Position numbers and translations under genes: made by a program
Part shown: positions 6,242 through 50,900 of the stretch, piece by piece
Layout: each line of letters begins with the position of its first letter
Position numbering within the stretch: position 1 is the first letter of the stretch
Assembly: GCA_029959195.1 (NCBI GenBank)
Contig: CP114121.1
Location: 2,542,001-2,606,000 of the forward strand
Source of the DNA: Dictyophora rubrovolvata
Lineage: Eukaryota; Basidiomycota; Agaricomycetes; Phallales; Phallaceae
Direction: 5' to 3'
Length of the DNA stretch: 64,000 bases
The notes under the pieces: model-generated
Databases searched by the model: none
What the model was told of the DNA's origin: nothing
The model's input: the letters and a program-made list of their open reading frames with translations, nothing else

Positions 6242-6570
6242 TTACAGGTGTTCCACAGGATGGTCAACACCCACCGTATGACTGCTTAACTCTTTCTCTT
6301 TCCATTGCCTCTCTCTCTGATTTTGCATTTTAGAAAACGTAAAAACACACCAAGTACATATGCTTAGACTTCCTTTTTCCTTAGACTTTGAGTTTATGTC
6401 GATTTTGAGCTCAAACCCGTTCGTTAATGACTAGAACTTATTCGTAAGGCCGTCAACTGCACTGACTGTGTGAAATGATGAATACATAGACTCCTTAAAG
6501 CACTTTGTTGGGGATGATCACCGTCACCGTCGATGACGTGCTGGCTATTAATCTGCTACTCGTCCGCACG
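6242..6570. other. Intergenic region
   Basis: 3' flank of the zinc-finger gene. I see nothing identifiable until about 6570, where homology with the flank of the third MADN copy begins. Confidence 0.5.
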
Positions 6571-6725
6571 CACTGAATATATTACAATGGGGTATTACAA
6601 AGCTTGGATTCTAGTTTAATGCAAATGACTCGAGTCAAAGAAAAAAAAATAATGGCATATGAAAGAATTTGAAATGAAAGACAGTTTTAAAAAAGAATTC
6701 GCAATGAAAGAGAAATCTATTTCAA

Positions 6726-7778
6726 CTAATGATCGCTGCGACGCGCGGCTGTTGGAGCAGACCTTCGCCAGAGAGGAACGTCTGATGCGTTGTCGTCAGT
6801 TTCCGCGTCCTCAGGCGCAGTACGATATGTATAAATGGGAACCTTTTTAAAGGGTATTTGATATTCGGGATATTTATCAAGAAATGGAGACGCAGACCAT
6901 GGGTGGCGGTACTCGAGCGAAGGACAAGGATTTGAAAATGTAGCAGGCTCCTTATTCGTAAGCTTGCCGCCTGGGCGCCCACGTTGTCCAGCCATTTCGC
7001 GAGCAGTTTGGACATCAATGGGTCTCGGAATACGAAGCTGCTCATAGTCCCGCAGGGAATTAAGGACGTGCAGCGAAAGGTTTTTTACTTGAACGATCCT
7101 GTCCTGGGCGATTTCGTCCTGAAAAGGATCGGAACATTTAGTGTCGGGTGTGTCCGAGGCAGGGGGGAACACACGAATGACAGGAATCGGAAGTCCGTGA
7201 TTATCCTCCGGAAATTTTACCATGGTATGGGAAGGAGAGAGGGATGGAGGCTGAGAATTCCCACTAGCGTTGTTTGTGGTTGAAGCGTTGATACCCAGAT
7301 TGTGGAGTGTGCGCCTCATGTTGAGCTCTGAGAACGATTCTTGGTTCCTCTTGGCTAGCCAGGCCAAAGATAACACAACGCCGCCATCATCCAATCCAGC
7401 CGCCTTTACTAAACCGAAGATCCACTCCAGATATGCAAGGCGTTTCTCCAAACTCAGCTTGGCATCGATAATCGCTTGAACTTCTTTTTTGCTAGCCTCA
7501 GCTTTTGGAGCTTGGAGCGCTTGCACCACCATAGCTATGAACAGTTCGGGGTCAAATGTCCGGACGAAGCGATATACGGGGGAAGCGACTGGAAAGATTG
7601 CATAGAATTGGTTGAAGTCGAGGTTGGCGAGAAAGTTGGTGATTCGGCTGAATACCACATCCAGTGCGGCTTCGCGCACCACTTGCAGTGTGCCCTTTGG
7701 AGAAGATTGCGCGGGAAGAATGTTTGTGAGAGATTCGAGGAGGGCGGGTGACATTACAAGAGAATTATCAGCCATCAT
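6726..7778 (-). CDS. MADN-family protein, copy 1 (unknown function, 350 aa)
   Basis: I do not recognise this family. It is a single uninterrupted frame of 350 codons beginning MMADNSLVMSPALLESLTN. Residues about 30-165 are helical in character and hold the blocks conserved among the copies: LDFNQFYAIFP, FDPELFIAMVVQAL, PKAEASKKEV, LEKRLAYLEWIFGL, AAGLDDGGVVLSLAWLAK, NQESFSEL and RRTLHNL. A Ser/Pro-rich linker follows, then a second conserved block with PIDVQTAREMAGQRGRPGGK, LTN and EYRHPWS. No signal peptide or membrane segment is seen. Paralogs lie at 10581-11117 (+) and 49826-50650 (-). This copy is the longest and probably the reference form. The start is the first of two tandem ATGs, conserved in all three copies. 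Homology continues about 250 bp upstream and about 150 bp downstream, so whole segments were duplicated. Confidence 0.72.
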   Translation of the reverse strand: MMADNSLVMSPALLESLTNILPAQSSPKGTLQVVREAALDVVFSRITNFLANLDFNQFYAIFPVASPVYRFVRTFDPELFIAMVVQALQAPKAEASKKEVQAIIDAKLSLEKRLAYLEWIFGLVKAAGLDDGGVVLSLAWLAKRNQESFSELNMRRTLHNLGINASTTNNASGNSQPPSLSPSHTMVKFPEDNHGLPIPVIRVFPPASDTPDTKCSDPFQDEIAQDRIVQVKNLSLHVLNSLRDYEQLRIPRPIDVQTAREMAGQRGRPGGKLTNKEPATFSNPCPSLEYRHPWSASPFLDKYPEYQIPFKKVPIYTYRTAPEDAETDDNASDVPLWRRSAPTAARRSDH

Positions 7779-8030
7779 CGTTGAAATAATAATGAGTTGA
7801 AAAGAAACTTTTCGGAACAGAAAGCGAGTGGAATGTAATTGGGGAAACGGATGCTTCCGTCAAATTTGGGGGTGAGTATTTATACACCTTCGAGTTCAGT
7901 TGTGGACATAGTTTATCATCCATAACCCGTAGGGACAAACGAACGTTCATTGAGCGTGTCTACGTCAATCTCCCACCTAAGCGTCCTTGTCCCCTGAGAC
8001 GCGTCTGGCTAACGACACGCCCAGTCCACT
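7779..8030 (-). promoter_or_regulatory. Conserved MADN promoter, copy 1
   Basis: Read on the minus strand this stretch matches the upstream regions of both other MADN genes. It contains a TATA box (7877-7884, tataaata), about 100 bp from the ATG. Just upstream is the conserved block tgtccacaactgaa (7895-7908). Between TATA and ATG is the block caaatttgacggaagcatc. Similarity to copy 2 runs out to about 8030. Confidence 0.75.
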
Positions 8031-9021
8031 GAGTAGGATCCTGCTCAAGTTAGCCTAGCTGCTCTTACAATACCCTTATTGGAGGATCTTTGAACGCAGT
8101 GTAATTAGTTAATCTAAGCTTTCTGTTCAAATAATCGCTCTGAGACTTAGCTCAGACAATACGCACAGTTGATAATTGATAAACGCTGACACGGTACGGC
8201 ACACGTCCATTCGGTACATATTACAGTCCGCCCGAATAGTCCTATTTGTCCTTACAAAGGATACTGCATCCGTACTCAGGAACCGAGTCCACATCCGAAG
8301 TTTAGAGTTTGACCTGAATGGTTATCAAAACTTCAGTGAATGAGTAAAACAAAGCATATCTACTAGACCCATAAAAATTTTAGTCCACAGTCAGTATTGA
8401 GGCCAGGATATCGATAGGATGACTGTTTGCATTGCTGTTCGTGGACATTAATTCGAACTCCGATCTCGGCGCTCATTTTCTTTGTCTTCAACAAAGCTTC
8501 ACTCATTTTGTTGAGCCAACGTGCAGACCGAGTTTCAATTATTCTGCGTTTAACAGTTCGCAGAACGTGCGCCATAGGTGACTGCAAAGAATTCCTCCTC
8601 CGATATTTCTTACGACACCCTTCTTCCCACATGTCTCTGCCTTTGTGGTCGTAAACGCCGTGATTCCATTTCGCAGAACAATTGTTCTCACAGGATCTAA
8701 GGGCGATACTAGGGTAATACAACATATAAGAAAGCTTTGTTGAATATCGAATTTCTCCAAAACAAACCATAGCCCATTTTCTGCTACCTAGGTGTATTAG
8801 ACATTCACCCTAATCGAGATTTCCAGATTTTCTTAACATGTTTGTTGTACGCGAGCCTCTGAGTCTTAGTTTCACTGTCTTGTTGTAAGTTGTGTGCGGA
8901 AATTGTTTCATCCAACTGAACTTTAGGACACCACTAACCAGGTCAGTTGTTGTCCGTCCACGTCGAAAGCAACCTTCCCTGGGATGTTTATTCGTCCGAC
9001 GGTCGATGGACATACGAAAAG
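8031..9021. other. Intergenic region between divergent genes
   Basis: A 135-codon minus-strand frame at 8363-8770 has no recognisable motif and no supporting splice or promoter signal. I treat it as chance. Nothing else is identifiable. Confidence 0.5.
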
Positions 9022-9028
9022 TATATAA
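9022..9028 (+). promoter_or_regulatory. TATA box of the small two-exon gene
   Basis: The sequence tatataa sits 63 bp before the ATG at 9085. Confidence 0.6.
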
Positions 9029-9084
9029 GGCCCCATTAATTCAATCTCTCCGTAACCCATCGCCGAAATTTACAGCTTATCCCG

Positions 9085-9618
9085 ATGTTTTCTTCTATCG
9101 GACCTCGAAACCGAGCAAACTCCCATAACAAAGACTCGCCCCAAGCAGTTTCCGCTTCCGATAAACTGGCGGAATGCGATTCAACCTTCGACTGCGAAGC
9201 CAATCAAACCAAGAATTCGGATGATTCTGGCAACCCAAATAACTCCCAGAACAGGGACTCATCTCAAGCCGCGTTTGTAAAACTTGCGGAATGTTATGCA
9301 GTCTTCGACATTAAAGCCCATCAAAGCAAGAAGATTACAGGTGATCTGAATCATCAACCTCGTAATCCACCGAGGTCTATTAGGTATCGCGCATCTAGTT
9401 TTGTCTTGGTATGTTTGTCTGTTTTGTTTTGGTTCGGCCTATTTTTGTTCATCCGGTTCTCGTTATCGTAGGATGAACACACGAGATCATTACCGGTTTA
9501 CCCTGTGGAGTTAGACTATCATGATTCTGAATGCTTTCCTCCCTTGAGTGCTTTGATGATGAACTGGAAGAATAGAGCGGCGAGGAGAAAACTCAAGGAC
9601 TCGGATGATGTTGCGTAG
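9085..9618 (+). CDS. Small two-exon protein with duplicated NKD-type motif
   Basis: I do not recognise the product. Exons 9085-9408 and 9472-9618 join in phase 0 across a GTATGT...TAG intron to give about 156 residues. The protein has two internal copies of one motif: NKDSPQAVSASDKLAECDST near residue 16 and NRDSSQAAFVKLAECYAVFD near residue 52. The second exon begins DEHTRSLPVYPVELDYH and ends in a basic stretch. The gene at 25803 carries a related single motif (NKDPFQEAFSELVENYF), followed by a phase-0 intron and an Asp codon. That makes distant homology plausible. No signal peptide or membrane helix is seen in the spliced form. The hydrophobic tail of the unspliced frame is intron translation. 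Confidence 0.6.
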
Positions 9619-10344
9619 CGGATCCCCAAAGATCCTTCATAGTTTCTTACTGACTTTGGGGTGATGCAATATGGCATAATAATGGAAAGTTAATGTGGTT
9701 AAATAAATATAAGCTCCATATGAATAATAAATGTATGCTTATGTATTCTTCTGCTAATTTCATAGTTTCTGTGTGCTTTACGGATGATATTACTATCTCT
9801 AGGTCCACGTTAACTTGAGCACCTCATAAACCGAAACACGTAAATCAGCACAAGGTTACAGAGCTCTAAAGCCTTCTTGCTTTCAGTAGTCACGAAAGGT
9901 TGGATTCCTGACCGTTAATTACACTAGTGGGCATATGATACCGTTTTCTGATTCGTTTAGAACCATGACCAGCTTAGCGCGTAAGAACATCAAACCATCA
10001 TCGTTCATCTTTTTATTCTTCTGACAGTAGACGGTTCGATTGAAATGCAATATACAAAATGTGGAATCAGGTCGAGGAGGGCCATGAACAGGCTACGAGA
10101 GAAATCCACGCAGACCCACGCTGTTTCACCCAGTTTAGAACACCTCTATTGGAGCGAACTTGAAGTTCTCACAATAAATCCAAATTCCAATCTTATTATC
10201 TTACCTACGTCCCCAGTCGTGATTGACTATCAATGAAGAGAGCTGTCGCCGTATATTCTAACGGAAAGTTGAAATCAGCCAATTACACGGCATTCAAAGA
10301 CCATCAAATAAGGGTCTTGTAAAAGCAGGTAAGCATGTGAGGTG
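9619..10344. other. Intergenic region with one arm of a direct repeat
   Basis: It contains the left copy (about 9984-10071) of a diverged 85-bp repeat whose second copy lies at about 11149-11232. A 63-codon frame at 10045-10236 is not supported as a gene. Confidence 0.5.
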
Positions 10345-10580
10345 GTCCTTTTCAGTGGACTGGTCCCGTCGTTAGCCGACCGCGATTAAAAGAGGACCCA
10401 CTGCGAGGACATAAAGGTGGAAGATCGACATGGACGCATTCATCTGCCCCTACGGATTATAGGTAATAAACCACAATGTCCACAACTGAACGCGAAGATG
10501 TATAAACACCCACACCGAAATTTGACAGAAGCATCAATTTCCCCCAATCACAAATTCTCTTTCAACTCGTTATTTGAACG
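10345..10580 (+). promoter_or_regulatory. Conserved MADN promoter, copy 2
   Basis: It matches the minus-strand upstream region of copy 1 over about 235 bp, starting near cagtggactgg. It holds the block tgtccacaactgaa (10477-10490) and a TATA box (10501-10507, tataaac) about 75 bp before the ATG. A caaatttctttcaactc-like leader precedes the start. Confidence 0.75.
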
Positions 10581-11117
10581 ATGATGGCCGATAATTTTCC
10601 TGTGATGTCACCCGCCATTATCAAACCTATCACAAACATTCCTGCGCAAACCTCTCCTGAGCGCAAACGACAAGTAATATACGAAGCCGCAATAGAGGAG
10701 GTATCTACACGAATCACCACCTTTTTCGCCTGCCTAGACTTCGATCAATTCTATGCAATCTTTCCGATCAATTCCCCCAAATTTCGCTTCGTCCAAACAT
10801 TTAACCCCGAGCAGTTCATAGCTATGATGGTGCAAGCGTTCCGAACCCCAAAAGCTGAGGCTAGCAAAGAAGAAGTGGAAGGGATTATCGGTGCCAAACT
10901 GAGGTTGGAGAAAAGGCTTCGATTTCTGGAGTATATGTTCGGTTTATTTGAGGCGGCTGGATTGGATGATGGCGGCATTGTGTTATCTTTGACCTGGCTG
11001 GTCAAGATAAACCAAGAATCGTGTTCAGAGCTCCACGCGAGGCACACCCTCAACAACTTGCGTCCTAACATCCAGACCTCCCCAAACCATGCTATTGGTC
11101 CCCCGTCCACTGGGTGA
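10581..11117 (+). CDS. MADN-family protein, copy 2 (short form, 178 aa)
   Basis: This is the second copy of the unrecognised MADN family. It begins MMADNFPVMSPAIIKPITN and keeps the whole first conserved region: LDFDQFYAIFPINSP, FNPEQFIAMMVQAF, PKAEASKEEVEGIIGAKL, LEKRLRFLEYMFGLFEAAG, LDDGGIVLSLTWLVK and HTLNNL. It then ends after about 20 unrelated residues (NHAIGPPSTG). The basic RRPGGK block of the other copies is absent, and homology stops near 11100. It could be a functional short form or a 3'-truncated copy. The promoter is well conserved. Confidence 0.65.
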   Translation: MMADNFPVMSPAIIKPITNIPAQTSPERKRQVIYEAAIEEVSTRITTFFACLDFDQFYAIFPINSPKFRFVQTFNPEQFIAMMVQAFRTPKAEASKEEVEGIIGAKLRLEKRLRFLEYMFGLFEAAGLDDGGIVLSLTWLVKINQESCSELHARHTLNNLRPNIQTSPNHAIGPPSTG

Positions 11118-11318
11118 TAAATCATCTAACAATTAGAATTACTATATAAGAATATCAAACCATTATCTCTTGATTCTTCAAACAGTAAATGGTTCAATGA
11201 GATTGCGTGACATATACAAAATGTTCAATCAGACTATTAGCTTTTCCTTGAGCTTGTGATATTCTCCCGAACTCCTCTATAATACGGCGCATATTCTTAA
11301 GGAGACAAGTACTAGTAA

Positions 11319-13007
11319 CTAGTAAGCACTACCCTGTGACGGCAAACCATTCGGGAAATATTGTTTGAAAAGATCGGGATAGTGTCGCTCTCCGACGTCA
11401 GGATGAGATCTAATTAGGTAGGAATATAGATCATTAGCTCTGACGATTTTAAGCGTACTATGCGCACGTACTTTATGCGCCCAATCAAATTGACTTGACC
11501 TGACGGTTCGCCACGATCATATTCCGAGAAGTTCACCGCTATGAAGAGAATTAAGGTGTAAATACCTTTGTTAAATCAGAAAAGTGAAGTAGGCTTACAA
11601 TCGCTAGCAGCTACATTTCCTCGCGCGCGAGCAAGTTCCATGACTTCTTCGGGCACTTTAAAAATAATTATATCAGATCATCGCACAACGAAGAGAAAAA
11701 AATGCGATCGACTTACAGTCAAGAATCTCTTCGCCTACACGAACATTCTGACTAATATTCTGAAAGAGAGGAACAGAATATCGGGGCCCAGAAACCGAAG
11801 CTGAATCATCATCTGAAGGTGACACGACACGATGAGAAGTGGCTTTCGCAACCCCACGCGTTGCTGTTTCCAAAGCTGTCGATAAAGTAAGCTTATAAAT
11901 GAGAAAATTTAGACTACGATCTGTTATATATAATACCTTTTCCAATGTTCACAACAAATGTTCCGGGGATTGGACTGGCAGGAATCCACTCTCCCCGAAT
12001 ATTTTGGACTTGGAGACCTTCGTGCGGGGATGCTTGAAGCAGCTTTTCAATTAAAAGGTAACAATGTGAGTACGATATACTTTATAAATGATTAGAGGAG
12101 TGAAAAGCATACGAATGTAAGAAATCCTGCGTCGTAATGAGGTCCGACTCCCTGTTTGCTCCCTCCGTCTTTAATTGGAGGGTATTTTACCAGCTAAAAA
12201 CAGTCAATTATCTTCAACCGATCATTTTAATGTGAAAAACAAATAACCAACTTTACATCGCTGTTGAATGTCCTTCACACTCGGAGCGTTATCGTAAAAT
12301 TTGTCAAGTGCATTGGACGGAAGACCAAGGGCCTCCGCAATCAACGAAGCAAATTTGAAGCTCAGCTCTCCAACTTGAGTTATGTATGTTTCGACAGTTT
12401 GACGGAAACCGGGAAGTAGATCTTCATCGGGCCACTAAAAACATTTAAGATTTCACAAAAAAGGAAAGGTGTTAATAAGCAGACAACGCTACTCATACCT
12501 GAGCAGCGCCCCACAATCTCAAATACTCCGGTTTACCTGGAGCCCATATCGAAACATATGGACTGGCAAAATCAAACTGTTCCCTCAAATCAGTAGCTCC
12601 TTTGGTGAATTCAGCTCCAAATCGGGTATAGCCCAAAAAGCAAGGACTATTTCGCATTGAAATCTTGTCTTTCTCTTCTTGGGGTAAAGCAAACAGGCGC
12701 GGTATATATGAAATCAGGTCATCAACTACGTTCTGGGAGACGGGTGAATTGGCGAGGTAGAGAAAGCTGCCACATTTGGGTTGAAGTCATGCCAGTCAGG
12801 TGATAGCTTGACGTTGTCAAGAAGTTTAAATTATACCCAACATATATGAGAGCATGCCTAAGTTGAGCGAGAAATTTGGGTTTATCTACAAATCGAGTTT
12901 GAGCCGTGGCCGGTGACTTCAAGCAGATCTATAAGACAACTCTCACCTGTATTTATCAACTCATAATCCAAAAGGGGAACACTTGTAAAGTCATTAAAAA
13001 CTGGCAT
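11319..13007 (-). CDS. 2OG-Fe(II) oxygenase (isopenicillin N synthase-like)
   Basis: Non-heme iron, 2-oxoglutarate-dependent oxygenase of the IPNS/ACC-oxidase type. Exons on the minus strand are 12928-12837, 12766-12499, 12434-12252, 12193-12113, 12042-11937, 11875-11717, 11655-11599, 11538-11472 and 11409-11319. All phases agree. Landmarks in order: FLAQLRHALIYVGFLYLANS (N-terminal DIOX_N region), SMRNSPCFLGYTRFGAEFTK, GVGPHYDAGFLTFLLQASPH (iron ligands His and Asp in HYD), SPIPGTFVVNIGK, ATSHRVVSP (second iron His) and PRYSVPLFQN (RxS motif for 2-oxoglutarate). The catalytic set is complete. The first exon is uncertain: ATG 13007 fits if a 52-bp intron with a weak GTTCCC donor is removed (12980-12929). 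The substrate cannot be told; the family acts on small molecules in secondary metabolism and detoxification. Confidence 0.86.
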
Positions 13008-14130
13008 GTTTCGCTATGGATCGGTTTCGACAGAGAACGAAGGGAATGTAGAGTGAAGAACAAGCCCAGAATGACACCATTCTCACCTAATCCCAGGCCA
13101 TGCGATTGCGCATGTGTCATCATCCGAAGAAGATAACGTCACGCGGTCACGTCAAGTTTAGATTCCGAGGTTGGCGCTTATTCTTTCATAGGCGTTTTTG
13201 TGTCTCTTCTCCAATGAATGTTGATTTCGATGCCCTCTATTGACGGCACGGATATTTGCATTGTAGAACTAAACTAGGATTTATTGGATATTCTTAGCCG
13301 CATTCATTGTCCCGACTCGGAGAAACATAACTCATCGTTTCTTTTCAACATTGAATCAAAGCCTGTCTTTTCATTCCAAAAAGCCAAATAGACAAAAGTT
13401 AAAACTACCCAAATACCTCTATGGCCTAACATCGGCATCGGTAAGTGGCTGATGTGAGGTAACAAAAAATCATCGTTTGTCAGACTTTTTACCACACCCT
13501 GTCTGGATTATATTTCGCTTCGGTGGAGTCTTCCGATCATGATGTACAATGACAGATGTACTGAACACCAGCTACTGGATGACAACTAAAAAGCATAGAA
13601 AGAGAGACGGTGACGTCATAGGAGATAGAAAAACGTTCAGAAGCCCCAATACTCCTCCTTGTGATCAAGCCTTTGCGTAGCATTGACGATCGACCTGGCA
13701 CTGCGATCTTAGCCGATCTAGGGAGACAAGTTGTGTTCAACACCAATAAAGGAAGATAAAGAAAAGGTTCTTCATGAATTGAGTTTCCAGCGGTTCAGAG
13801 GAAACAATGTAGCTCGGCTTGGAAATAACCAGATTAGTCTCAGATGTAGATAAAAAAATGAGTTAGTGTATTTACAGCTTCCTAAGGCAAAATCGAATAC
13901 AACTTGAACCACTCGAGGCGGCACGTTAGCATAGCAACAACGGTTTTTAAAAAGGTCCAAATCGATAAATAAAAGCGCTATGGGATGTCACTAGGGTGAA
14001 TGGCAATTAAGAACATGTGTCAGCGAGCATACGAACCATGTCATATGAGGCACAACCCGTAAGTATCTAGCCTTTCTAGTTAACAATTACCAAGCTATCA
14101 TACGCCCGAGACCTCATCATCTGTCAGTGC
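13008..14130. other. Intergenic region
   Basis: Several frames of 60-76 codons lack motifs, conserved starts or splice support. I see no RNA gene or repeat of note. Confidence 0.5.
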
Positions 14131-14289
14131 GTCGTGTCAGAAATGCGCGCCCACTGTTGGGATGGAAGAGGGGAAGTTACGGGCTATGCTAATCAGAAGT
14201 CGCAGGTCGATTTAGAGCAAACAAAGCTGTCGAAAGAGATAGGCGAGTTTGAACGGAATTCGCCGTGGGATAAACTGAGATTCATTTTA

Positions 14290-14541
14290 AGTTCATTACC
14301 CGGACGTAAATGTGGCCCCCCGCATCATTATTTCAGCCTGGAAAGCGTAACATGGGCTAGGAAGCTCTTCTTCATCACTGGGAGATAGTATTGTGGTGTC
14401 CTACATACAGTTATCAAAATGATGAAACGACGTAGAGATACTTACCCCAACACAGTCACCGCGAAACTGAAATAATTTTCTACTAGTTCCAAAAAGCCTT
14501 CTTAGAAAAGGGTCTTTTGTTAGGGAGGTTTAGGAAGACAT
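14290..14541 (-). pseudogene. Decayed copy of the 25803 small gene
   Basis: The reverse complement aligns with the gene at 25803-26050 over both exons and the intron. The start ATGTCTTCC, the NKDP region, the GTAAGT donor and the ggacaccac-agtgaagaagaagagct exon-2 start are all recognisable. A 12-base deletion after codon 3 creates a TAA as codon 4, so this copy should make no protein. Similarity continues downstream to about 14130 and upstream to about 15300, interrupted by an inserted element at 14625-14957. Confidence 0.65.
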
Positions 14542-14624
14542 AATTATGCAATAAACTGTGAATGTAGAATGCTCGCGAGGAAGAAGATTTATGTATGTAC
14601 CCGTTGCAGTGTTGCTTGTAACAT

Positions 14625-23400: not shown

Positions 23401-23409
23401 CGAACACGA

Positions 23410-32766: not shown

Positions 32767-33502
32767 TTTTTATGATTCTTAATTTTTTCTCTTGTCTCGA
32801 TAAACGCTCATGAATAAAATGTTTTAATGCGATGCAAAAAACTAAGGTCTCAAGCTGAAATACTAACACGAATAAGAAGTACGATAAGGCTGCACACGGG
32901 CGCCTGGTTTTTGTCGACGACCAAACGAAAAGCAGCTGCTCTTCGTATCTGTATTGAGTCCCATGTGGCTGAAATTCTTCGAGAGGCTGGGCCGCGAGTT
33001 TGTCTGTCTTGATTGCCATACTAGCTTACGCTAATAATGTACATGGGTAGGGCTTACACGTCAATGACATAGCTGTGCAGAATAACCAGGATCCTTCTAA
33101 ACTCAGTAAGTACTTACCAACCTGGTTCAATTCCTTATGTCTGACGAATGCTCGTCGTTCCATGTAGGCAGTTGTCTTCGTTATTTGGCGACATATCATG
33201 TCTTCAAGGAAACTACTCCCAATGTTTTCGCTAACACCCGAATTTCCTCCTTGTTGGATACCGGAAAGTCCATTCAAAATCTGCTAGCGAAGTGTGTTTT
33301 TCCTATGCATCTATTACCAAATTCACTCTCTTAATGTCACGCCGCTTGCAGCCCCACTCAGAAATACGACGATACTTCTGGATTAACGGCATTAGTAGCT
33401 TGCCAGCAAGTCGCTCAAAAATCTGAATGCTTAGTTCATGTGCTGAGAACGAGAACACAATATTAAATAGGCTTGACGAGTGCACCAAAGCCGCTGCATA
33501 TA

Positions 33503-35116
33503 CAGTGACTTACAAAACTGTTCACGCGCTTCGCTGTTTTGCGCGCAAATATTCATAACTCTTCCAATAAATTTGATAAAATCGCGAAAATGTTTGTGAA
33601 GATAGCTGGACATAGTAGCCAAAACTTCCATTAAAAATGTATACAATAATTTTCGAGAATTATACATGATATACGCTATTCTACTGTCCCAGGTCAGATG
33701 AACAGTTTTGTCAAGTGCCAAACAAAAATCAGAAAAGGGTATCTATCTAATATTTGGTATATCCACCTTTTGCTTTTATCACAGCCTCCACTCTTCTAGG
33801 CATACTCTCAATCAAATCCTGACATTCCTTCAGTTCTATTCCCTCCCAGACAATGCTAACCCTCTCCCAAAGCTCATGGATCCCACTGGGGACTGTTTCA
33901 TACCCAGAAAGCCTCCTTTTCACAACACTCCATAGATGTTCTATTGGATTAAGGTCAGGGGATTGTGGAGGCCATTTCATAACATTGACATTATGATTTT
34001 GAAACCAGGATTTCGCTTTTTTTGATGTATGCTTGGGGTCATTGTCCTGCTGGAAGATGACTTCTTCAACTGTTTTCCCAAAATGCTCCAAGGAACCCTG
34101 TAAATCTTCTTGTAGGATTTCACAGTAAAGGTCTGCATCCATTTTCCCATCGATTTTGACCACATATCCTGTCCCATCCCAGCCAAAACAGCCCCACACC
34201 ATGATTGAGCCACCACCATGTTTGACTGTTCCTTTGACAAGTCTTTCATTTATGGATTCCCCCGGTTTTTTCCAAGCCCATTTTCTCCCATCTGACCCAA
34301 ACCGATTAATTTTTGACTCATCTGACCACACAACACGTTTCCAGTCATCTATTGTCCAGTGTTGGTGGGCAACAGCAAAGTCAAGCCTCTCCTTCTGGTG
34401 CCTTTGAGAGAGGAATGCTCGTTTAATCTTAACAACCGACTTCAAACCCTCACTTTTGAGGCATCGTCTGACTGTTTGCACATTCATTACTAGATCACAC
34501 TGCTCTCGAAGAATTTGCTGGAGCTGGACAGCAGTGTCCGCCTTTCCAGAGCTGATATATCGCGTGCAGAGCCTGACATCATTCGGGGAAAGCAACCTCG
34601 GACGGCCACCACAGGACTTTTTTCGGTCCGGTCTATGGAGTTTCCCAACTTTATGGACACTACCAACGCTAACGCCAACCCTCTGAGCAATCTCCCTGAC
34701 CGCACAGCCAGAATCCAGAAGAGAGATGATGTTTTGAGTGGTCGAGGTGGAGAGCTTCATAGCAGGAAATTTTGACTGTGCTGATGCTGATATTTTTCAC
34801 TCAGAGTCATGACTAGATATATTGCTCAAAAATAAATGATCACATGACACGCATTTAATGCTAAAAAAACTGCGGAAAACCTTATTTTACTTTCCACTTT
34901 CGCCAGCGACAAAACTGTTCACGTGATGTTAGCCTAAATATTTGTATATAACTCGTGAACGCGACGCGTTTTGCTCAAACTCCCTTAATATCATCGATAG
35001 CTCATATATCACACTACCTCCATGAATATTTCCATGATTTTATAAATTTTATTAGAAGAGTTATGGACATTTGCGCGCAAAACAGCGAAGCGCGTGAACA
35101 GTTTTGTAAGTCACTG
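33503..35116 (-). mobile_element. Complete Tc1/mariner transposon with long inverted repeats
   Basis: The element starts cagtgacttacaaaactgtt at 33503 and ends with its reverse complement at 35116. It is flanked by TA on both sides (33501-33502 and 35117-35118), the expected Tc1 target duplication. The outer inverted repeats extend about 75 bp with only three or so mismatches. A second, inner copy of the motif acaaaactgttca sits about 200 bp inside each end in opposite orientation (about 33700 and 34909). It carries one uninterrupted transposase gene. The near-identical ends and intact ORF indicate a recent insertion. Confidence 0.95.
33747..34760 (-). CDS. Tc1-family DD34E transposase, intact
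   Basis: 337-residue transposase, the normal length for Tc1. The N-terminus has paired helix-turn-helix DNA-binding domains: ISLLDSGCAVREIAQRVGVS, and a second with QILREQCDLVMNVQTVRRCL. Between them lies a GRPR-type hook (GGRPRLL). The catalytic DDE residues are visible: Asp in VVWSDESKINRF, Asp in QQDNDPKHTS and Glu in SPDLNPIEHLW, with Tc1-like D34E spacing. The ORF starts at the ATG at 34760 with no intron and no internal stop. It lies inside perfect-looking ends, so the element could be autonomous. The fungal relatives are not identified here. Confidence 0.95.
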   Translation of the reverse strand: MKLSTSTTQNIISLLDSGCAVREIAQRVGVSVGSVHKVGKLHRPDRKKSCGGRPRLLSPNDVRLCTRYISSGKADTAVQLQQILREQCDLVMNVQTVRRCLKSEGLKSVVKIKRAFLSQRHQKERLDFAVAHQHWTIDDWKRVVWSDESKINRFGSDGRKWAWKKPGESINERLVKGTVKHGGGSIMVWGCFGWDGTGYVVKIDGKMDADLYCEILQEDLQGSLEHFGKTVEEVIFQQDNDPKHTSKKAKSWFQNHNVNVMKWPPQSPDLNPIEHLWSVVKRRLSGYETVPSGIHELWERVSIVWEGIELKECQDLIESMPRRVEAVIKAKGGYTKY

Positions 35117-36187
35117 TACTTGGGACGTTTTGGCGGACCCTACCACGGTCAAGTCTAACGAACTTTCAGATTCGGCATTTTCCAAATATATTGGAAACGG
35201 AAAATCGTTTTGGGAATATTTTGGAGATCCAGAACAGGCGTTTAGAAGTCGTCGGTTCAATATCGGTATGCATGGCATACGAAGGTTGCAGCCTCAAGAT
35301 GTCATTCTTTCTGGTACATTTTATTGGTCAATGTTCTGTATGGCCGATTAATATCTCATGATGTATTAGTTTATGACTGGAAGACTGTCCCGCCCGGAGC
35401 TGTCATCGTAGACGTCGGAGGAGGTGTAGGAACCACCCAATTATCTTTGGCTAGAGATTTTCCGCTCTTCAAGATCATCATTCAGGATAAACCGAAAGTG
35501 ATTGAAGATGGTATAAAGGCGAGTTATCACAAAGTTAAACGGGCGATGACGGCGTGATCAGAATATAATAGATGTGGCGTGAAAATAACTCGGATGCAAT
35601 AGACTCCGGAAGAGTAGTATTTGAAGGTAAAGTGATATAATGATATGGTGATTGACAATCAATGAACTGTTAACCTAATATGTGTGCAAACGCAAGTTCA
35701 CGATTTCTTCACACCACAACCGGACCGAGAAGTTTCATTCTTCTTTCTCAAACAAATTTTACATGACTGGTCAGATGAATATTGTTCGAAAATTCTGATA
35801 CACCTACGGAAGGCTGCGTCTCCGAGCACGAAACTCTTGTCTATGGACAGCGTTATACCATATGCGTGTCGGGATACTTCCCCGTATTCATTTCCCGGTG
35901 CCATTCCAGACGAAGCTCCTTCCCCGCTCCTGGCCAATTGGGGAGGCGCAAATACATTGGGATACCAGATTGATATTACTGCAAGTATTCATATGCATGC
36001 GACGCATGTTAGTTATACTTACGACTTGGTTTGTTTTTAGGTAATGTCTGTGTTCAATGCCAGAGAAAGAACTGTCGGCGACGCTGTCAGCTTGTTGGAG
36101 AAGTGCGGTTGGAAAATAGTGGAGATACATCGTCAAAGGGGAGCACAAGGCTCATATTTGCAATGTTTAGAGGCGATTCCGATATGA

Positions 36188-41413: not shown

Positions 41414-43084
41414 TTGAGATACGCCTGGAGTCTAAGGGTGGGGTGGGGAAGATGGTGTTTATGCGGAGGTTATTTGGTGCGTTCCCTTATTTATTTATTT
41501 ATTTGAGGGTAGCGGGAGAGTTACGGTGCAAGTGAGGTAGGTGGACGCGTACGGGCAATGGGTGGCGACTTGGAGACTGTAGGTACTAGGTACGAGGGAC
41601 TGGGTAGTAACTGTGAGTCAGAAGAACAAGGAGATGTGTAGCTGGATACTTTCCATGCGAGTCCATGGAGTATTTATGCATGAGTCAGTTAGTCGTCGTG
41701 AGGAAGGCCACATGAGTCAAGCGACGTGTACAGGATTTCGGATTTCCAGGCAGACAAAATAATTATAAACATAAATAAAACAGCATTGGAAGCTGACAGA
41801 TACCGATACTAGTAGTAATACAGATACAGCTACGCCCGGAGGCCAGCCAGTTGGAGATGGGAGGGAGGCAGATTGGGCGATTGGGCAGCAGCGCAGCATA
41901 GCTATAAGCTCCGTATTGGCCAGTTGACAAACTTAATTGAATAATGTCAGCAGTTAAGGTGGCGTGCTTCGGCAGATAATAAATATCTCCGGAAAAGGAG
42001 AGATTGGCAATTTTCGTGAATTTAGCACCCGAATACATAATTTGCGCTGATAACGGGTAGATCTCCATTGAGAAGAAAAGAAGTCGCAATAGACTTTTGA
42101 CTCTGTTTACCTTCTGTAAATTGGGTGCTTTTTGGAGTCACGAGGGCGCTGACACAGCCATGACTCAGATTTCCTCCAAGTCCAACAACAAAAACAAAAA
42201 CAAAAAAAAAAAAACAAGAACAAAAAACAAAATTGATTATGACTGTGATTGAATGATGACTCGACAGCGCACAGATCTCGTTTTTGTTCTTTTGTTGTTC
42301 CTCAAGCGAGCGCTGGCCGTATATTCCGGGCGCAGAATAACAACTACATATCACCAACTGTTGACACGTTAGCAGATCAAATTCGAAACTCAAGTCTGGA
42401 CAAAAACAACTGACTAGTAACCGATGACCAAGGAACAATTTATGTAAGTGAAGTTTTTATGTCCAAATTACTTTGGTCAAACAGCATCGCAATAATAGCA
42501 TGCTGCATTGCTTCGTTTTTTAAGGTTGTTTACAAAGTGAGAAATCCACCCACGTTTGTTTGATCGCTGCGCTGACTTGGCATGGGTGATAATGCATATG
42601 GACATCTGGCGAGTTGGCTGCTGTATGAAGCCGAGCCTCAGCATGCTGGCCAATGCTGGCTCTGGTCATCAACGTACGTGTGGGCTGTGCAATGCACCCA
42701 CAAAGCACCAGAGAGCACCATGGTCATACATCCGGGTCACCCACAAATCAATCCTCAGCTCGTCGACACAACCGTAGTTCATTGGCTTATTATCACCCAA
42801 ACAAGTCTACGCTGTCTCGAGCTAGCGACGATGCAACAGCGACAAGCGTGTCTCGTAATCGAACAAGTCATGTAAATAATAATAGCACGACGCTTCCGGA
42901 CAAACAAGCCCGATCATCCCACTCCCAGCAGTACATACATACGTATCCTTTCTTTCTTTCTTTCTTTCCCCTTCGCCACTTCCCTTATTTCATTTTCTCT
43001 GTCTTTTTAATTTTTGCTTCTTTACGCTCTTCATCACGTTTTTTTTATAACATACTATATCAATCTCAATAATAATCACCATCA
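41414..43084. other. Long upstream region of the large Ser/Pro-rich gene
   Basis: It holds no gene I can support. It contains simple repeats: atttatttatttattt near 41490, an A-rich caaaaa run at 42185-42235, and a tttc run at 42950-42967. Confidence 0.5.
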
Positions 43085-46000
43085 ATGAGTTCTCCCACGC
43101 CCCCAGGCTATACGTATGTCCCCCTTGAATCAAACTCGCTCTCTCACCCGACAGCCAGCTCATTACCCATACCCAATTAAATAACAGAGGCAGACCTTCT
43201 TCAAACATTTCTGGCGGTGTCAAAACAATCGTAGACCGCGTCAACAAAAAATGGGCCAAGAGTCGAACAGTCAGCATGGCTCCTACCCCCAGCAGCGGCG
43301 ATGGCGGCGGCAGCTCTTCTTATCGCAACAGTAGTATGGCTGCTGCTACTTTTGCCCTTGAAGAGGTGAGCCAAAGTGTCCATTGCCATCGACATTCATT
43401 TCTGACGCGCGCGCGTGTGTATCGTCGCAGCAATCATACCTCGTACAATTAATGCTCGAGATAGAGCATAATACCGGTGCCGTTGAGCTTTGTCAATCCA
43501 TTCTCGGAGACTTTCAGAGAACGGCCAGGACCTATTATTCTCAAATGTCTAATTTGCACCAAGCTAGGTGAGCAAACCAAAAACCTGCTCCAGCCCCTCC
43601 ACCCCCCTAATTAACTCGCGTGTCTAGGACCGCAATCTCAAACGCCGATACAGAAGGAGTCCGCATGCTTCAAGAGAGAGTTATGGTCGTTCTTACCAAA
43701 CAGCGCATGTTGGACATTGAGATTAAATATTTGGAGAACAAGGTCAATATGACTAGTAACAACTTCCCCTAGCATGCCCGAACTTACTCTTCCTTCCAGA
43801 TCAACTTATTCCAGCGACGCAACCGCGCTTTTGATGAGTTCAACGAACGGCTCATCACATTATACAGTTCAAGTTGGCCGAAGAGTTCCATCAAAAGTAC
43901 GTTTGTTTTCACCTCTCCTTACCTTCTCATCAACTTTGCTCATGTTTTATTTTACCAGAATCACAGATAAGCCAAGATAGCTTTGAACGGAACATCGACG
44001 AAATATATAATCAATTGCATAAAGCCGATATGACGTTGGAGAGATATAAATTGTTGAAGGCGCTTTTGACCCAGGGCGAGAAGGCTTTGAGGGCCGCCGG
44101 AAAGTTTGCTGAGGGGTTCAAGGAGGAGAATGGAAGTCTGAGCCCGGGTATCAAGAGTAGGTTGAATAACAAGTACTTGGATGGTGAGTCAGAGTAGAAG
44201 AGTGTTTTGTTTGTCTTCAAGGGGGCTTAGTTTGGGTTTCCTAGCGATGCGGATGTGCACGGTTCAAGCAGATGTTGCAATGAAGCAGGCCAAATTTGTT
44301 TTACCTTCCTTGTTCAAAGATTACCTGAACGTAGAGATCTTTCAGGAGTGAGTGTGGCTCATCATGTGCTGATTCATGGTCTTGATACTGATGTGATGAT
44401 TGATTGGCTTTTTTTCAGCGGCTGGCTTTCTTCAGTTTTCCGATCGGACAGAATCGAGGGTTAGTTCATCAACCCATCATAATTCACTTACCCCGCTTTA
44501 ATCTATCTATCTCACCTAGACGCAAACCAACACCTCAAAACCTTCTCCACACACCACACAGCTCTCAAACCCATTATAGAACAATCCAAGGAACTTATCA
44601 AAAACCAATCAGAACTTACCCACGCCCTTAGGACGAGATATCATGATGCACTTTTGTCAAAGGAGAATGCCCAGAGGAAAACGCTGTACGACTTTGTTTT
44701 ACCATCTACCATGGCTGCGTACTTGGAAGACCCGTCTGGCACGAGAGGGAAAGAGAGCGGAAGGGATTTGCTTTATTTCCGAATGGACAGTCTTGAAATG
44801 AAGCTAGACAAGATTCTATACAACGCTGATGTGCATGCCAGTAAGAGTAAGAGTAGGAGTGGGAGTGGGAGTACGGAGGAGAATGAGGTTGGAAATGGGA
44901 ATGAAGCAAACTTGGATGCGGAAGAGGATCTCGTCGCCACCACCAATCGTATAATGATGAACAACCCCAAACGCCAGACATTCATTGATGATTCGTCATA
45001 TCGCGAAGCAGACGGTGAACCGACCTCGAGTAATATTTCGCGCCCCGTTCCAGTCTCCACCACTAACACTGCTTTATCTTCTTCTTATCCTCATCCTGCC
45101 ACATCGTCACGGGCTCCCTCGCCTTTGAATAGTTTGAGTAACAGTCGGGCTGCTTCTCCTGGTTTTGCAGGCATTGGTGCTCGTTTTTCGAGTGACGGGT
45201 CAATCACATTCGCATCCATGTCCACATTCGACTCAGCTCCAATTCCTCCCGTGGCAATATCAAACACCCCCGCGACGCCCATTTCACCAAGTGAATCAGG
45301 CCCCTCAACTGGACCTAGATTTGCAGCACCTAAGCCCATACGCGCCTCTTCCAGAGGCCACTTCAAAAGTTATTCAACATCAACACCAGCAGTACGAGGC
45401 ACTTCGGGTGCCAATCTGGGTACGTCCTCATCTAACCCTCCCCGCCGTCCTTCAAGCCGACCGCCGAACCTCTTCGACTCGGAAGATAATACTAAAGTCG
45501 ATGGTGTGGTATCCCCTTTACCTGGCGCGATTGCAGCAAAAACGCCTGGACCGTCGTTATTATCTTCACCCTCGCCCGCGCATACGTCTTCTTCTCTTAC
45601 ACCTTCTCCCGCGGCTTCAGCGTCATCCTCTCCCGCACAATCTCGTTCACAATCTGCGTCTCCTGCACATTCGCTCGATAACTCCAGATCTAGATCTAGC
45701 CTAGGTATGGATTCGAACGCGAGTCAAACCCGTGGCGAAACAGAAGCATCCCGCCCGCGTATACAAGATGGTGTGCCTCGAATGAGGTCACCTTCCCCGC
45801 TGAGACCATTACGTCCTTCTCAACCGGCCCCGGTCCCGTCGTCTTCAACTCTACCGCTGACGATTCCTTCTCCTCCGATGTCGACATCAGTTCGACGATC
45901 CCCGTCGCCTTTACCCATACCTCCTTCCATCGCACCTGTCGTTCAATCTCGAACTCCGTCACCATCAACAAGACCTATGCGCGCTCTGCCTATTCCGGGT

Positions 46001-48118
46001 CAGAATTGGAGTCAGAGATCGAATAGCGATGAGCAGGGGCAAGAGCAAGGACAAGGACAAGGACAAGGAGTATTACCTATCGGACGCCCTCCGCCGCTTC
46101 CATCTAAGCCACCTGGATATTCGGCAGTTCCACATCTAGACAGGCCGACACAAAGTCCGCGATCGCCCTCTCCGCCCGGAGAAGTAGCTATTTCAGGATC
46201 GATAGTTGGATTGGGCAGAGATTCGCCTGCTCCTGATACTCCTTCGTCTGCGTCTTCTTTATCCGTCTACTCTCATATGATCGATCAAAGCAAGGATTAT
46301 GAAGAAGGAGATGAAAGAGACGACAAGACTGATAACGTTATACCTCGAGATGAAGCTAAACCCGAAGCTCAAGCTCAAGCTGAACCTGAAGTTGAAACCG
46401 AGGTTAAAGGCGAATTAGCCGAGGTGGGAAAAGCCAAAGCGGAAGGAGAAACTGGAGCCGAGCCGGCGGCAGTCAAATCACTAAGATCAGCTCCATCATT
46501 TCCACCCCCATCCCCACCTCCATTATTACCACCACTTTCAAAGCTCACATCGACAGTACAAAGTTCGAGTACTCGATCTGTAACTCCGCCGCCTTATATG
46601 TTTTCCTCTCCTCCTCCTCCTCGTCCTGCTTTTACAAATAACTTGTCCCCTCTTGGATCTCGAGCGCAGGCTGCGACAACATCTACGCCTAACCTTACAA
46701 CCACGACTATGACCACGACTACGACGACGTCTACAACACGAGCCGCACCACCACATGGCATACTCAAGCACATTTCATCGCAAAGCACGATCAGCACCAG
46801 TCATTCTACTGCAACAGTACCAGAAACTGCAGGCACCGCAGAACTACCACCACGCAAGCAGTCGAGTCTTGAAGAGTGGGGAACCGTTAAAGTGGGAACT
46901 GCGCCTTCAACGAATACAAAGGCGAAATTCAAATCCATGTTTAATCGATTACGTGGCGAGGGTCACTCCTCCCACGGTGGTGGGAGTGGTCATGGTGACA
47001 CGGCGCGCAATAATGCTACTCGTGGTGTTAAACCGAATCGTCCCGACTCTGGTAGTTCGTCTTACAGTGCCGGCAGTGGCAGTGGGGTAACGTCCCCTGC
47101 TATGGCTGCGGCTATTGCTGCTGGGTTTATCTCCCCTCCCGGAGCTCACGGTCAGGGTCAAGCTTCTCAGTCACAGCTGAGACCGCAATCGCAATCGCAA
47201 TTACAGTCACAGTTGCAAATCCAGCGCAGTCGTAGTCCGCGCTTTGTTGATAACGTGGAGATCATACCCCGTCCTGAAGTCGATTCGTATCCTTATTCGA
47301 GTGACGAGGACGAGGGTGATGCGGCTGAACAACCGCCTTCGCCTTTGAAAGGGAATTCGATTTTGCGGAGTGATGGTCAGACTGAAGAGGATGACGACGA
47401 CGATGACGACGACGACGAGGAAGAAAAGAAGGAGACGAGGGTGAAAGGGAAAATGGGAGAGGGAAGGGCAATTGATGGTAGGGTGTTGGATGATGAAGAC
47501 AATATGGGGGATTATTATTATGTCGAGTCTCCTGTGCGCCACCATCAAAGACAGAGTCAAACCGTGGTTGATCAGACCGGTCAGCCGCGGGAACGCGGAT
47601 GGGCTGAACGTTATCATGGACAAGATAATCGTGCGAGCTCCTCATCTGGAAGGGAGTCTTATGTTCCTTCTGGAAGTCGTCGCCTGAGCCCGAGCCCGAG
47701 CCGGAATAGTAATATCAATGAAGCCGTGCGTCGACGCGAGATAGACAATACTGGTGCTGCGATGGACAATCGTCGCAATAGTATTGATAAGTATAAGACG
47801 TTTTATGATGACATGTTGCTGAAGCCAGCAGGTGAGCAAAATCTGAACATATATATCGGATCTCCAACTACTTACTGTATTTTTTTTTGCTTCGCAGCAC
47901 CGCCCTTGACATCTCGTAATCCTCAACGACCACGACCAGCCGCACCTCCACCTCCACCTCCACATCCACCACTCTCCATCAACACCATGTCCACTTCCAA
48001 CCGCGTTTCCAATCTCTCACCTCCGAAATACACATCATCACCGCCACAAATACAAGGTCCCCTCCGGTATATCCCAACACGTCCACCCCCGCCTAAGCCA
48101 GTTCAACGGGAGCCTTAG
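43085..48118 (+). CDS. Large coiled-coil and Ser/Pro-rich protein (unknown function)
   Basis: I do not recognise the family. The spliced start is MSSPTPPGY|TGRPSSNISG (exons 43085-43113, 43188-43365, then from 43431). The N-terminal 400 or so residues are helical: QSYLVQLMLEIEHNTGAVEL, GVRMLQERVMVVLTKQRMLD, IDEIYNQLHKADMTLERYKL and VQADVAMKQAKFVLPSLFKD. This suggests a coiled-coil or BAR-like scaffold. A huge exon from about 44520 to 47830 follows. It has KTLYDFVLPSTMAAYL and FRMDSLEMKLDKILYNAD, then about 900 residues rich in Ser, Pro, Thr and Gln with short PPP runs, a poly-Gln/Gly run (about 46036-46070), an acidic Asp run (about 47390-47425) and SPR-type sites. A probable last intron (about 47831-47897) happens to be open. 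The last exon is Pro-rich. A signalling or cytoskeletal scaffold is inferred only from composition. Confidence 0.65.
47390..47432 (+). repeat. GAC/GAT run encoding poly-Asp
   Basis: A trinucleotide run gives about eleven consecutive Asp codons followed by Glu codons in the large Ser/Pro-rich protein. Confidence 0.85.
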
Positions 48119-49570
48119 TCTGCCGATTCCCATGCCAACAACTATTCTATGGTAGAATCGATTCTTTCATTCTTTGTTTTATTTACTTGTTCTGGTTCTT
48201 CGTTGTTTCTTTCTTTATGGTTATGATCTGATCAACCCAATATAGACAATGGCAATCTTGCAACGAGTAATTCCCAGTTACTGTATTCCTTTCATTTATT
48301 GTTTTTCTGTGCAATCCGTGTCTTTTTTTTTCGCCTGTAGTGGATTGAGTAGTTACCTATTATATATCTATACTCATATCTTCTATGTCGTTTCAATGAG
48401 TATATCCATATCCGAAGTTAATGCGCACCTGGAGAGGTCCGCTAATGCTAGTAGGAAAAATAAGTGTGCAAGGAAAGGTATTAAATTGACATACGGATCA
48501 ACTCCACGAGGTACATTGGTTGAACAATGTTTTTTTGATAGGTGATATTTATGCGTTTTTATTACATAGAGAAGGCTAGGCGAGACATAAATAAGTCGGC
48601 TTATCAATTAGGATGTGGCATTGACAGTGATATTAATGTCTTTGTTTTTCCGCTAGTTGGAAATCTGTCCGTGCTCATGTAACGCAATAGTAAACCGACT
48701 GACTCATATTCACTGTATATATGCCGTATATATACTACATGAGATGTACCAGTGATATTCTAGAATCGTCTCATCTTTTGCTTCTTCTTTACTCCTCCCC
48801 TTTCTCCCTTTTTCTTAAGGAAAAAAGGTTTTGACGTCTGTACTTGCTGTTTCTTGTTTCGTGTATACGTCCATTTGAGACAGGTTTTTGTACATTGCAG
48901 GCAGAATTCCGAGTCAGACGAGCCTACTCTTCCTCAATCTGAGAACTCGCACGTATGTATATGCATATGCATATATGACGGTTCATTTGGAAGAAGGCGC
49001 CGCTGACATAGTAACTCTAATAACTCTAATCGTTAGATAAAGATCAGTTCATCAACCTTTAGAAAATCTTAATGCTGATTTTCTCTATTCCGTTTGAAGT
49101 TTGAATCAATAGGGTCCAACCGGCTCCAGTGCTTTGTTTGGAAATTGGGGGATGTACGCACAGTTCAATCTTAACCATAATAAAGAGTAACCAGGAAGAG
49201 ATAGTCCCCGAAGAATACAATTTGAGTACGTTAAACCTCACGTGGAATAATGAAGTGTGTATCGAGCTCAAGTGGCAGCATCTCAACATAGCAGCATAAT
49301 ACACAACCTCAATTAGCTTAAGCTGCTGCGGCACGGTGCCATATATAATATATACTGGCGCAACCATGTCCAATATGACTCACTCTTAGCGTACGCCTCT
49401 CTAACGACTCGTCTTTAGTGACGTTCCTTGAGGGAAAGTCCAATAAAACCCATAATGTAAACGCTTCGAATTATGAGCACCGAGCACTGAGCAGTATTGT
49501 CAATTTCTTCTATCTCGTTCGATGGCGACGTCAACGACTTTAAATAACTCGAAGGGTGTTAGATGAATGT
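48119..49570. other. Intergenic region
   Basis: 3' flank of the large gene and downstream flank of MADN copy 3. Frames up to 104 codons (49059-49373, minus) carry no motif. A short palindromic run atatgcatatgcatat lies near 48959. Confidence 0.5.
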
Positions 49571-49825
49571 AACTGATTATATTGCAATGGTGGATTACAA
49601 AAGCTTGGATTCTATTATAATGAATGATTCGAGTCAAAGAAAAATGGAATGGCATATGAGAAAATTGTGAACTATTTTAACTAATGATCCCCGGTGCGAC
49701 GTGCGGCGATTGAAAAAGACTCGCGGGAGGAATGTTTGATTCGTTTTCGCCATTTCGATGTAGTTGGGCACAGTACAATATGAATGATTGACGATTACTT
49801 CAGGGGCGATTGGATTCTCTGGACA

Positions 49826-50650
49826 TTACATAGACCATGGGTGGCGGTACTTGAGAAGAGGATCAGGATTTGAATAAGGTAAAGTCTCATTGTTCGTAAG
49901 CTTGCCACCTGGTCGCCTGCGTTGTGCCGCCATTTGGCGAGCAGTTTGGACATCGATGGGAATCTGCATGCGAGGTTCGATCCATTCTGTCTCGAAAGAA
50001 TTGGGGACGTGTAGTGACGGGGTTCTTGCGTGAACGATCTTATGCTGGACGAGTCTATCCTGGCCAGATTCCCAGGATTCGGGTCCTGGCAATTTTTCCC
50101 CGGTAGGGGGAGGAGAGATGGCTAGAAGCTGAGGATCCCCACTAGCATAATGGCTTGTGAAGGCTGAGGAGTTTAGATCCAAGTTGTTGAGGGTGCGCCT
50201 CGCGTTGAGCTCTGAATACGATTCTTGGTTCATCTTGGCCAGCCAGGCCAAAGGGAACACAACGTCGCCATCATGCAATCCAGCCACCTTAAATAAACCG
50301 AACATCCACTGCATGTACGCAAGCTTTTTCTCCAACCTCAGTTTGGCATGGATAATCGCGTCCACTTCCTCTTTTCTAGCCGCAGCTTTTGGGGCACGGA
50401 ACGCTTGCACAACTATAGTTTTGAAGTGTTCGAGGTTGAATGTCTTTATGAAGCGATGTCCGGGGAAATTACTTGAAAATATTGCATGAAATTGTTTCAT
50501 GTCTAGGCAGGCGAAAAAAGTGGTGATTTGGGTAGACACCTCCTCCATCGCAGCTTCGTACAGTTTGCGCTCAGGAGAGACTGACGCAGGAACGTTTGTG
50601 ATAGGTTCGATCATGGGGGGTGACATCGCAGGAAATTTATCAGCCATCAT
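49826..50650 (-). CDS. MADN-family protein, copy 3 (274 aa)
   Basis: Third copy of the unrecognised MADN family. I place the start at ATG 50650 (MMADKFPAMSPPMIEPITNV) to match the other copies. The longer frame back to 50740 reads into the conserved promoter/leader. Conserved blocks are LDMKQFHAIFSSNFP, TFNLEHFKTIVVQAF, LEKKLAYMQWMFGLFKVAG, LAWLAKMNQESYSELNARRT, then the second block PIDVQTARQMAAQRRRPGGK, LTN and KYRHPWSM. It ends there. Copy 1 continues about 47 residues further, and similar DNA is present downstream here out of frame. This copy therefore has an early stop relative to copy 1. Small differences (for example LDM-KQFH for LDF-NQFY) fit an older split from the others. Confidence 0.68.
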   Translation of the reverse strand: MMADKFPAMSPPMIEPITNVPASVSPERKLYEAAMEEVSTQITTFFACLDMKQFHAIFSSNFPGHRFIKTFNLEHFKTIVVQAFRAPKAAARKEEVDAIIHAKLRLEKKLAYMQWMFGLFKVAGLHDGDVVFPLAWLAKMNQESYSELNARRTLNNLDLNSSAFTSHYASGDPQLLAISPPPTGEKLPGPESWESGQDRLVQHKIVHARTPSLHVPNSFETEWIEPRMQIPIDVQTARQMAAQRRRPGGKLTNNETLPYSNPDPLLKYRHPWSM

Positions 50651-50900
50651 CGTTGGAAATAATGAGTTGAAAGAGTATTTTTCTGAGGAAAAACAGGTAG
50701 TGGGTGGTATGTGATTGGGGGAAATTGATGCTTTCGTCAAATTTGGGGGTAGGTATTTATACGCCTTCGCGCTCAGTTGTGGACATGGTTTATCGTCTGG
50801 ACAAACAAAAGTTCATTGAACGCGTCCAAGTCGACCTCCCCCCTTAGTGTGTCCAACGGCACCCCGGGAAGTTTTCCCTGGATCAGTTCGAAGTGTGCCC
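50651..50900 (-). promoter_or_regulatory. Conserved MADN promoter, copy 3
   Basis: On the minus strand it contains tgtccacaactgag (50774-50786 region), a TATA box (50755-50762, tataaata) about 105 bp from the ATG, and the caaatttgacgaaagcatc block. The layout is the same as in copies 1 and 2. Confidence 0.75.

Follow-up and report, generated by a model that had tools for sequence, protein, structure and literature searches.

A clustered gene family without a recognised domain in Dictyophora rubrovolvata, with a branch of three copies of unequal length

What are the three related genes of very unequal length that lie in one stretch of the Dictyophora rubrovolvata genome, and how did their lengths come to differ? 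The stretch, called the window here, covers 64,000 nucleotides (C5:2542001-2606000, where C5 is contig CP114121.1 of assembly GCA_029959195.1) of a genome of 28.24 Mb in 11 contigs. An earlier note, made from the letters of the window, had described the three genes as the copies of an undescribed family, with shared promoters, a conserved core and fast-evolving ends. By their sequences, the three genes instead form a single branch within an unnamed family that has at least 11 genes and apparently no introns, and we have little doubt about this family and its duplication history. Our best overall reading, which we hold to be about as probable as its negation, is that the amplified family encodes adaptor-like proteins and that its trio branch is loosely constrained and partly truncated.

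The trio and its wider family

The three frames were all found where the earlier note had placed them:

6726-7778, minus strand: copy 1 (G2548), 350 codons in a single open frame, with the core and the full tail, including YRHPWS and a degenerate PFKKVP
10581-11117, plus strand: copy 2 (G2552), 178 codons, N-terminus and core only; homology ends near 11060, without a tail
49826-50650, minus strand: copy 3 (G2591), 274 codons, with the core and a shortened tail that stops just past YRHPWS

The head-to-head pair of copies 1 and 2 is separated by 2.8 kb, in which a small unrelated frame lies. The BLASTP comparison showed 63% identity between copies 1 and 2 (180 columns, E 4e-75) and 51% between copies 1 and 3 (298 columns, E 2e-90), and tblastn gave 60% between copies 2 and 3 (187 columns). 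This likeness is far above chance, and on the alignments the three genes are true relatives, as had been proposed. The double-Met start holds too, since all three begin with MMAD[NK], and the blocks IDVQTAR and R.RPGGKLTN are common to copies 1 and 3. The core words that had been listed as shared are all present, but not each one in every copy: QFYAIFP occurs in copies 1 and 2 and reads QFHAIFS in copy 3, while SLAWLAK occurs in copy 1 and reads SLTWLVK in copy 2 and PLAWLAK in copy 3.

The family is not confined to three copies. Whole-genome protein queries with six different members returned an identical set each time, namely 11 open cores, of which ten lie on C5 at 2.410-2.593 Mb (within 183 kb) and one on C2 near 0.536 Mb. 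The same 11 came from an iterated profile run on 264 kb, of which the window is part, and the count is to be read as at least 11. The idea of an amplified family was therefore sound, and its size had been underestimated. Broken relics were also found on four contigs: those on C11 (two), C7 and C9 are akin to the member at C5:2514 kb, the two on C11 being 96% identical to each other over 1135 columns, and the one on C8 is a tail fragment resembling the tail of member G2533. In the midpoint-rooted tree the window trio is joined with support 100/99. Outside the trio most members begin with MSR or ML/MF and then ..PAKLP or a like word, and MMAD[NK] marks the trio branch rather than the family, for which MADN/MADK had been taken as the sign.

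The statement that these proteins match no known family was borne out in the libraries searched. The Pfam, NCBIfam, PHROGs and PDB sequences gave no match better than E 0.03, and the Pfam scan of all 11 members found no family at E 0.03 or better, so that no known domain, transposon protein or viral protein was matched. The IMG/VR and GTDB contigs held no confirmed relative, a result which says nothing on fungi. Searches of the literature for orphan genes, recognition genes, promoters and lineage-specific families yielded nothing on the family, which does not prove it unpublished, nameless proteins being unsearchable by word.

A complete member consists of a short N-terminus, a core of about 115 residues and a long tail. 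SPAK, SPVK or SPER sites occur in the N-terminus of six of the 11 members, YRH-like motifs in the tails of six, and PFIPP near the end of five. The core is predicted to be a helical bundle with modest confidence (predicted local distance difference test, pLDDT, 71.7), and residues 161-350 of copy 1, which form its tail, are predicted to be disordered (pLDDT below 50). The fold search with the predicted core gave no convincing match. In being predicted as a helical bundle, the core resembles the FAT-type, talin-type and syntaxin-type bundles. Helical bundle domains of these types often bind short motifs. By simple hydropathy, the highest 19-residue values across the 11 members range from 0.53 to 1.34, and the members are probably soluble, without an obvious membrane span. 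The same values are the basis on which an N-terminal hydrophobic signal peptide, as expected of a secreted effector, was considered.

Families of a comparable kind have been described in other fungi. Excerpts of a study on Amanita report 109 families unique to ectomycorrhizal species, with duplication among the named origins and strong purifying selection on these families (PMC7674699). The absence of a recognised domain and the origin by gene duplication are shared with what those excerpts describe, whereas omega (dN/dS) near 1 on the trio branch differs from the strong purifying selection reported there (PMC7674699). The second comparison is with DUF6535 (PF20153), whose function is likewise not known and whose gene relatives are repeated near family members on C5 and C2. 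The DUF6535 family is typical of Agaricomycetes, and it is mentioned in a paper on Flammulina. The proteins of the family studied here do not match PF20153, and DUF6535 proteins look membrane-bound by eye while the members of this family do not.

Duplicated segments, shared promoters and lost tails

The wider family grew by duplication of DNA segments, and neighbouring genes were carried along. The stretch C5:2476568-2491926 is repeated in inverted orientation at 2520800-2533063 with 77-87% identity in pieces; the repeated block, some 12-15 kb long, includes the G2480/G2527 pair of the family plus neighbour genes. The C2 segment near its family member repeats DNA related to a C5 DUF6535 gene (C5:2465.7 kb, E 6.6e-57) and DNA related to a C5 gene with a pro-kumamolisin activation domain, both identified by Pfam scans done on C5 pieces. 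The rearranging region also holds a duplicated actin-like gene. For the trio itself, the evidence of duplication is the shared upstream DNA only. Retroposition was entertained because the frames are single open stretches, and it is disfavoured, since the upstream DNA and, elsewhere in the family, neighbour genes were also copied.

The following upstream regions and TATA-like elements belong to the trio:

7779-8133, minus strand: upstream DNA of copy 1 that shares homology with that of copy 2 and, in its first 200 bases, also with that of copy 3
10254-10580, plus strand: the corresponding upstream DNA of copy 2, which shares homology with that of copy 1
50651-50850, minus strand: upstream DNA of copy 3 that shares homology with that of copy 1 and, by BLAST over its first 143 bases, with that of copy 2 as well
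7875-7882, minus strand: TATA-like element of copy 1, within GTATAAATACTC, at -104
10501-10508, plus strand: TATA-like element of copy 2, TATAAACA, the sole one of the 11 members to fail the strict pattern T[AT][AT]ATAC[CT]
50752-50759, minus strand: TATA-like element of copy 3, at -109

The BLAST blocks run past the start codons, by 355 and 327 bases for copies 1 and 2, by about 200 bases for copies 1 and 3, and by 115 and 143 bases for copies 2 and 3. Identity in the last 200 alignment columns 5' of the start is 80-88% within the trio, about the level of the coding part, and the shared promoter sequence suggested earlier is thus confirmed as homologous DNA. The pattern T[AT][AT]ATAC[CT] occurs a single time in the 300 bases upstream of the presumed start in ten of the 11 members, always at -85 to -109, and the TATAAACA of copy 2 sits at the matching position. 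From the density of the pattern in the region, its chance occurrence is 0.8% per gene, a figure to be read with the facts that the pattern was picked after inspecting the sequences, that start codons were presumed from the alignment and that the 11 occurrences are not independent because the members share descent. As a sequence feature, a TATA-type core promoter is common to the family genes.

The length differences in the trio come from the homology break of copy 2 and the stop codon of copy 3. In copy 2 homology breaks off near +500 and the tail is gone; no remains of it were found in the 4.9 kb downstream. In copy 3 a stop codon directly follows YRHPWSM, and homologous DNA continues out of frame beyond it. 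Further features of the DNA around copies 2 and 3 are:

9982-10070, plus strand: left copy of an imperfect direct repeat flanking copy 2 (71% over 93 columns)
11147-11232, plus strand: right copy of the same repeat
49572-49825, minus strand: DNA past the copy 3 stop in which homology to the copy 1 end persists, interrupted by frame-breaking indels

In our reading the complete gene is copy 1; copies 2 and 3 are relaxed and truncated, having kept the promoter and core and lost the tail or the tail end.

Several observations concern the locus as a whole. The distance from the family cluster to the end of contig C5 is about 162-345 kb. The exact sequence TTAGGG x4 was found in none of the 11 contigs, and a subtelomeric setting of the cluster is not claimed; the control GGGATT x4, the same sequence reversed, had six forward matches in the genome, perhaps from one microsatellite array. 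Another amplified gene of the cluster has five copies (C5:2484685-2486138, 2487926-2489379, 2491679-2493078, 2512086-2513553 and 2523260-2524697) and resembles a kinase by eye only (VAIKRLDVLE..., DISENNILVNHFG...); with the pieces of one copy joined end to end, no Pfam family was found at E 0.001.

Coding constraint and the rival explanations

By their sequences, the genes of the wider family are genuine genes under protein-coding constraint. The pair G2480/G2527 is 97.2% identical from the presumed start through the frame (1122 columns) as against 65.4% in the next 300 bases, and the fall occurs in the 100-base window which contains the stop codon. Its omega is 0.29 (373 codons; twice the log-likelihood difference, 2dlnL, 10.8), and it has no indel in the frame versus 11 in the flanks. 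By maximum likelihood, omega is 0.39 for the core of G2480/G2519 (2dlnL 9.95) and 0.53 for the tail of G2533/C2_535 (2dlnL 8.80). Indels in multiples of three make up four of four in the coding part of G2533/C2_535 versus five of 13 in its flanks, seven of nine versus four of 12 for copies 1 and 3, two of two versus five of seven for copies 1 and 2, one of three versus two of three for copies 2 and 3, and five of seven versus five of nine for G2480/G2519; the frame-breaking coding indels sit near or past the end of the shorter partner. The branch model on the 11 cores gave a background omega of 0.47, a rough value given the great silent-site length of the deep branches, while the trio had 1.00 (2dlnL 8.58, one added omega). 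A dN/dS near 1, which the earlier note had named as a sign against its family, is thus seen in the trio and not in the wider family. A kept core beside fast-evolving ends, as that note had supposed, is also not what the trio shows: maximum likelihood omega is 1.04 in the core, likewise 1.04 over 160 aligned N-terminal codons, and 0.92 when the tails of copies 1 and 3 are compared. Pairwise values for the trio were 0.84-1.34 by maximum likelihood and 0.90 (copies 1 and 2), 0.62 (1 and 3) and 0.71 (2 and 3) by NG86; the two methods disagree, and both are reported.

As to what the proteins do, the adaptor mechanism is tentative, and we would sooner doubt than believe it. The family genes would be expressed, the helical core would bind one partner, motifs in the disordered tail would bind a second, and the protein would act as an intracellular soluble adaptor. 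The tail-less copies 2 and 3 are probably drifting, or may compete with the complete form. An extended version, in which complete adaptors and tail-less competitors stand under one promoter type and the tail-less forms (copies 2 and 3, perhaps also the 200-codon G2475) arose repeatedly and tune the complete ones, possibly in self-recognition or development, strikes us as very unlikely.

Several results weigh against this picture of adaptors with a loosely constrained branch. The adaptor idea is drawn from architecture alone, PFIPP is limited to five of the 11 members and copy 1 carries only its degenerate PFKKVP, and the structure prediction drew on three close sequences, with four of five models below pLDDT 46. 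As for constraint in the wider family, the core of G2533/C2_535 has omega 0.65 and omega 1 is not rejected (maximum likelihood, 2dlnL 1.68), and the contrast around G2480/G2527 is clean on the 3' side only: its 5' side is 89.6% identical over 300 bases and, in the nearest 100, at 96.6% as alike as the frame, so gene conversion or promoter constraint may contribute. For the trio core neutrality is not rejected (2dlnL 0.03) and replacements do not avoid the columns conserved in the family (Mann-Whitney p = 0.13), and for these reasons the trio may just be decaying. Copies 2 and 3, perhaps even the whole trio, would then be pseudogenes in the making, which were duplicated with their promoters, truncated and left to drift without function, and this explanation is a serious contender, if somewhat short of an even chance. 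It accords with the omega near 1 in both core and tail, with the tail of copy 2 lost at a homology break and with the stop of copy 3 followed by out-of-frame remains; moreover, the relics on C11, C7, C9 and C8 mean that decay does occur in the family. On the other hand, the common N-terminal frame is open in all three copies, which happened in 0.47% of neutral simulations (5.3 stops expected), a modest test of open-frame retention given that the frames tested were noticed for being open. The one-base replacements in the trio are milder than random ones (n = 79, mean BLOSUM 0.20 vs -0.30; significance not computed), and each of the six indels between copies 1 and 3 that precede the copy 3 stop has a length divisible by three. 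When the trio was split, copy 1 alone fitted omega 0.45 and the rest 1.12, a gain that is not significant (2dlnL 0.97).

Omega near 1 despite open frames might also arise in a fast-evolving recognition or conflict system, as a mix of constrained and diversifying sites, and the clustered, rearranging locus with its several multi-copy neighbour genes would suit such a system. The two-class fixed-site model on the trio, however, was flat (conserved columns 0.96, others 1.08, 2dlnL 0.24), omega above 1 is nowhere supported, and we consider this explanation unlikely; diversifying selection in the trio was rejected as a candidate, the fixed-site contrast having shown none. That the genes are cargo or a protein of a transposable element is hardly credible to us, even though the frames are single-exon, an imperfect direct repeat of 86-89 bases flanks copy 2, and the relics on C11 and C9 adjoin a palindromic repeat. 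The lack of any Pfam family in the 11 members means that they hold no transposase, integrase or reverse transcriptase, ten of the 11 are clustered rather than dispersed, and ordinary neighbour genes ride in the duplicated segments. The homology blocks of the trio also end at differing places, and the one imperfect direct repeat at copy 2 is what was seen in the way of element ends, no systematic search for ends having been made. An amplified family with a loosely constrained, partly truncated branch stays our preferred reading.

Other features and the meaning of the family

The remaining features of the window and the genome are:

9085-9471, plus strand: small 128-codon frame lying between copies 1 and 2; a TATATAAG box precedes it by about 60 bases
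33501-35118: Tc1-type element with a 337-codon transposase (DDE_3, HTH_Tnp_Tc3_2)
51904-54117 and 63574-64000 (on to C5:2607816): the two copies, 94% identical, of a directly duplicated segment of about 2.2 kb
54470-54876, 59770-60175 and 62728-63107: three copies of a dispersed repeat, each about 400 bases long, with 77-95% identity in pieces
57100-57564: retroelement integrase-core fragment (rve, E 2e-8)
L040 655-1150, L041 3-435, L043 799-1105 and C5:2536034-2536322: palindromic repeat

The 128-codon frame contains an internally repeated stretch (KLAEC...FD..A.Q.K) and, in the manner of tail-anchored proteins, a hydrophobic segment at the C-terminus; it matched no Pfam family at E 0.01 and had no second genome match at E 1. 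The inverted repeats flanking the Tc1-type element are 105 bases long and 88% identical. In the left copy of the 2.2 kb duplication lies a frame resembling an O-fucosyltransferase (PF10250, E 2e-5, 24.6 bits, short of the cut-off of 31.5). The palindromic repeat beside the relics on C11 and C9 is perhaps a foldback element, which may have transported the relics or inserted into them.

As things stand, this is a solid annotation and no surprise, as an amplified fungal family without a recognised domain is of a known kind. Fungi have many multi-copy gene families that are unexplained, and this one, unmatched in the libraries searched, joins them. Complete and truncated paralogues, one promoter type, measurable differences in constraint and a rearranging cluster together form a compact natural series, which makes the family a fair test case for the fate of copies after segmental duplication. 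If some of the tail-less copies do function, the family would be of wider interest.

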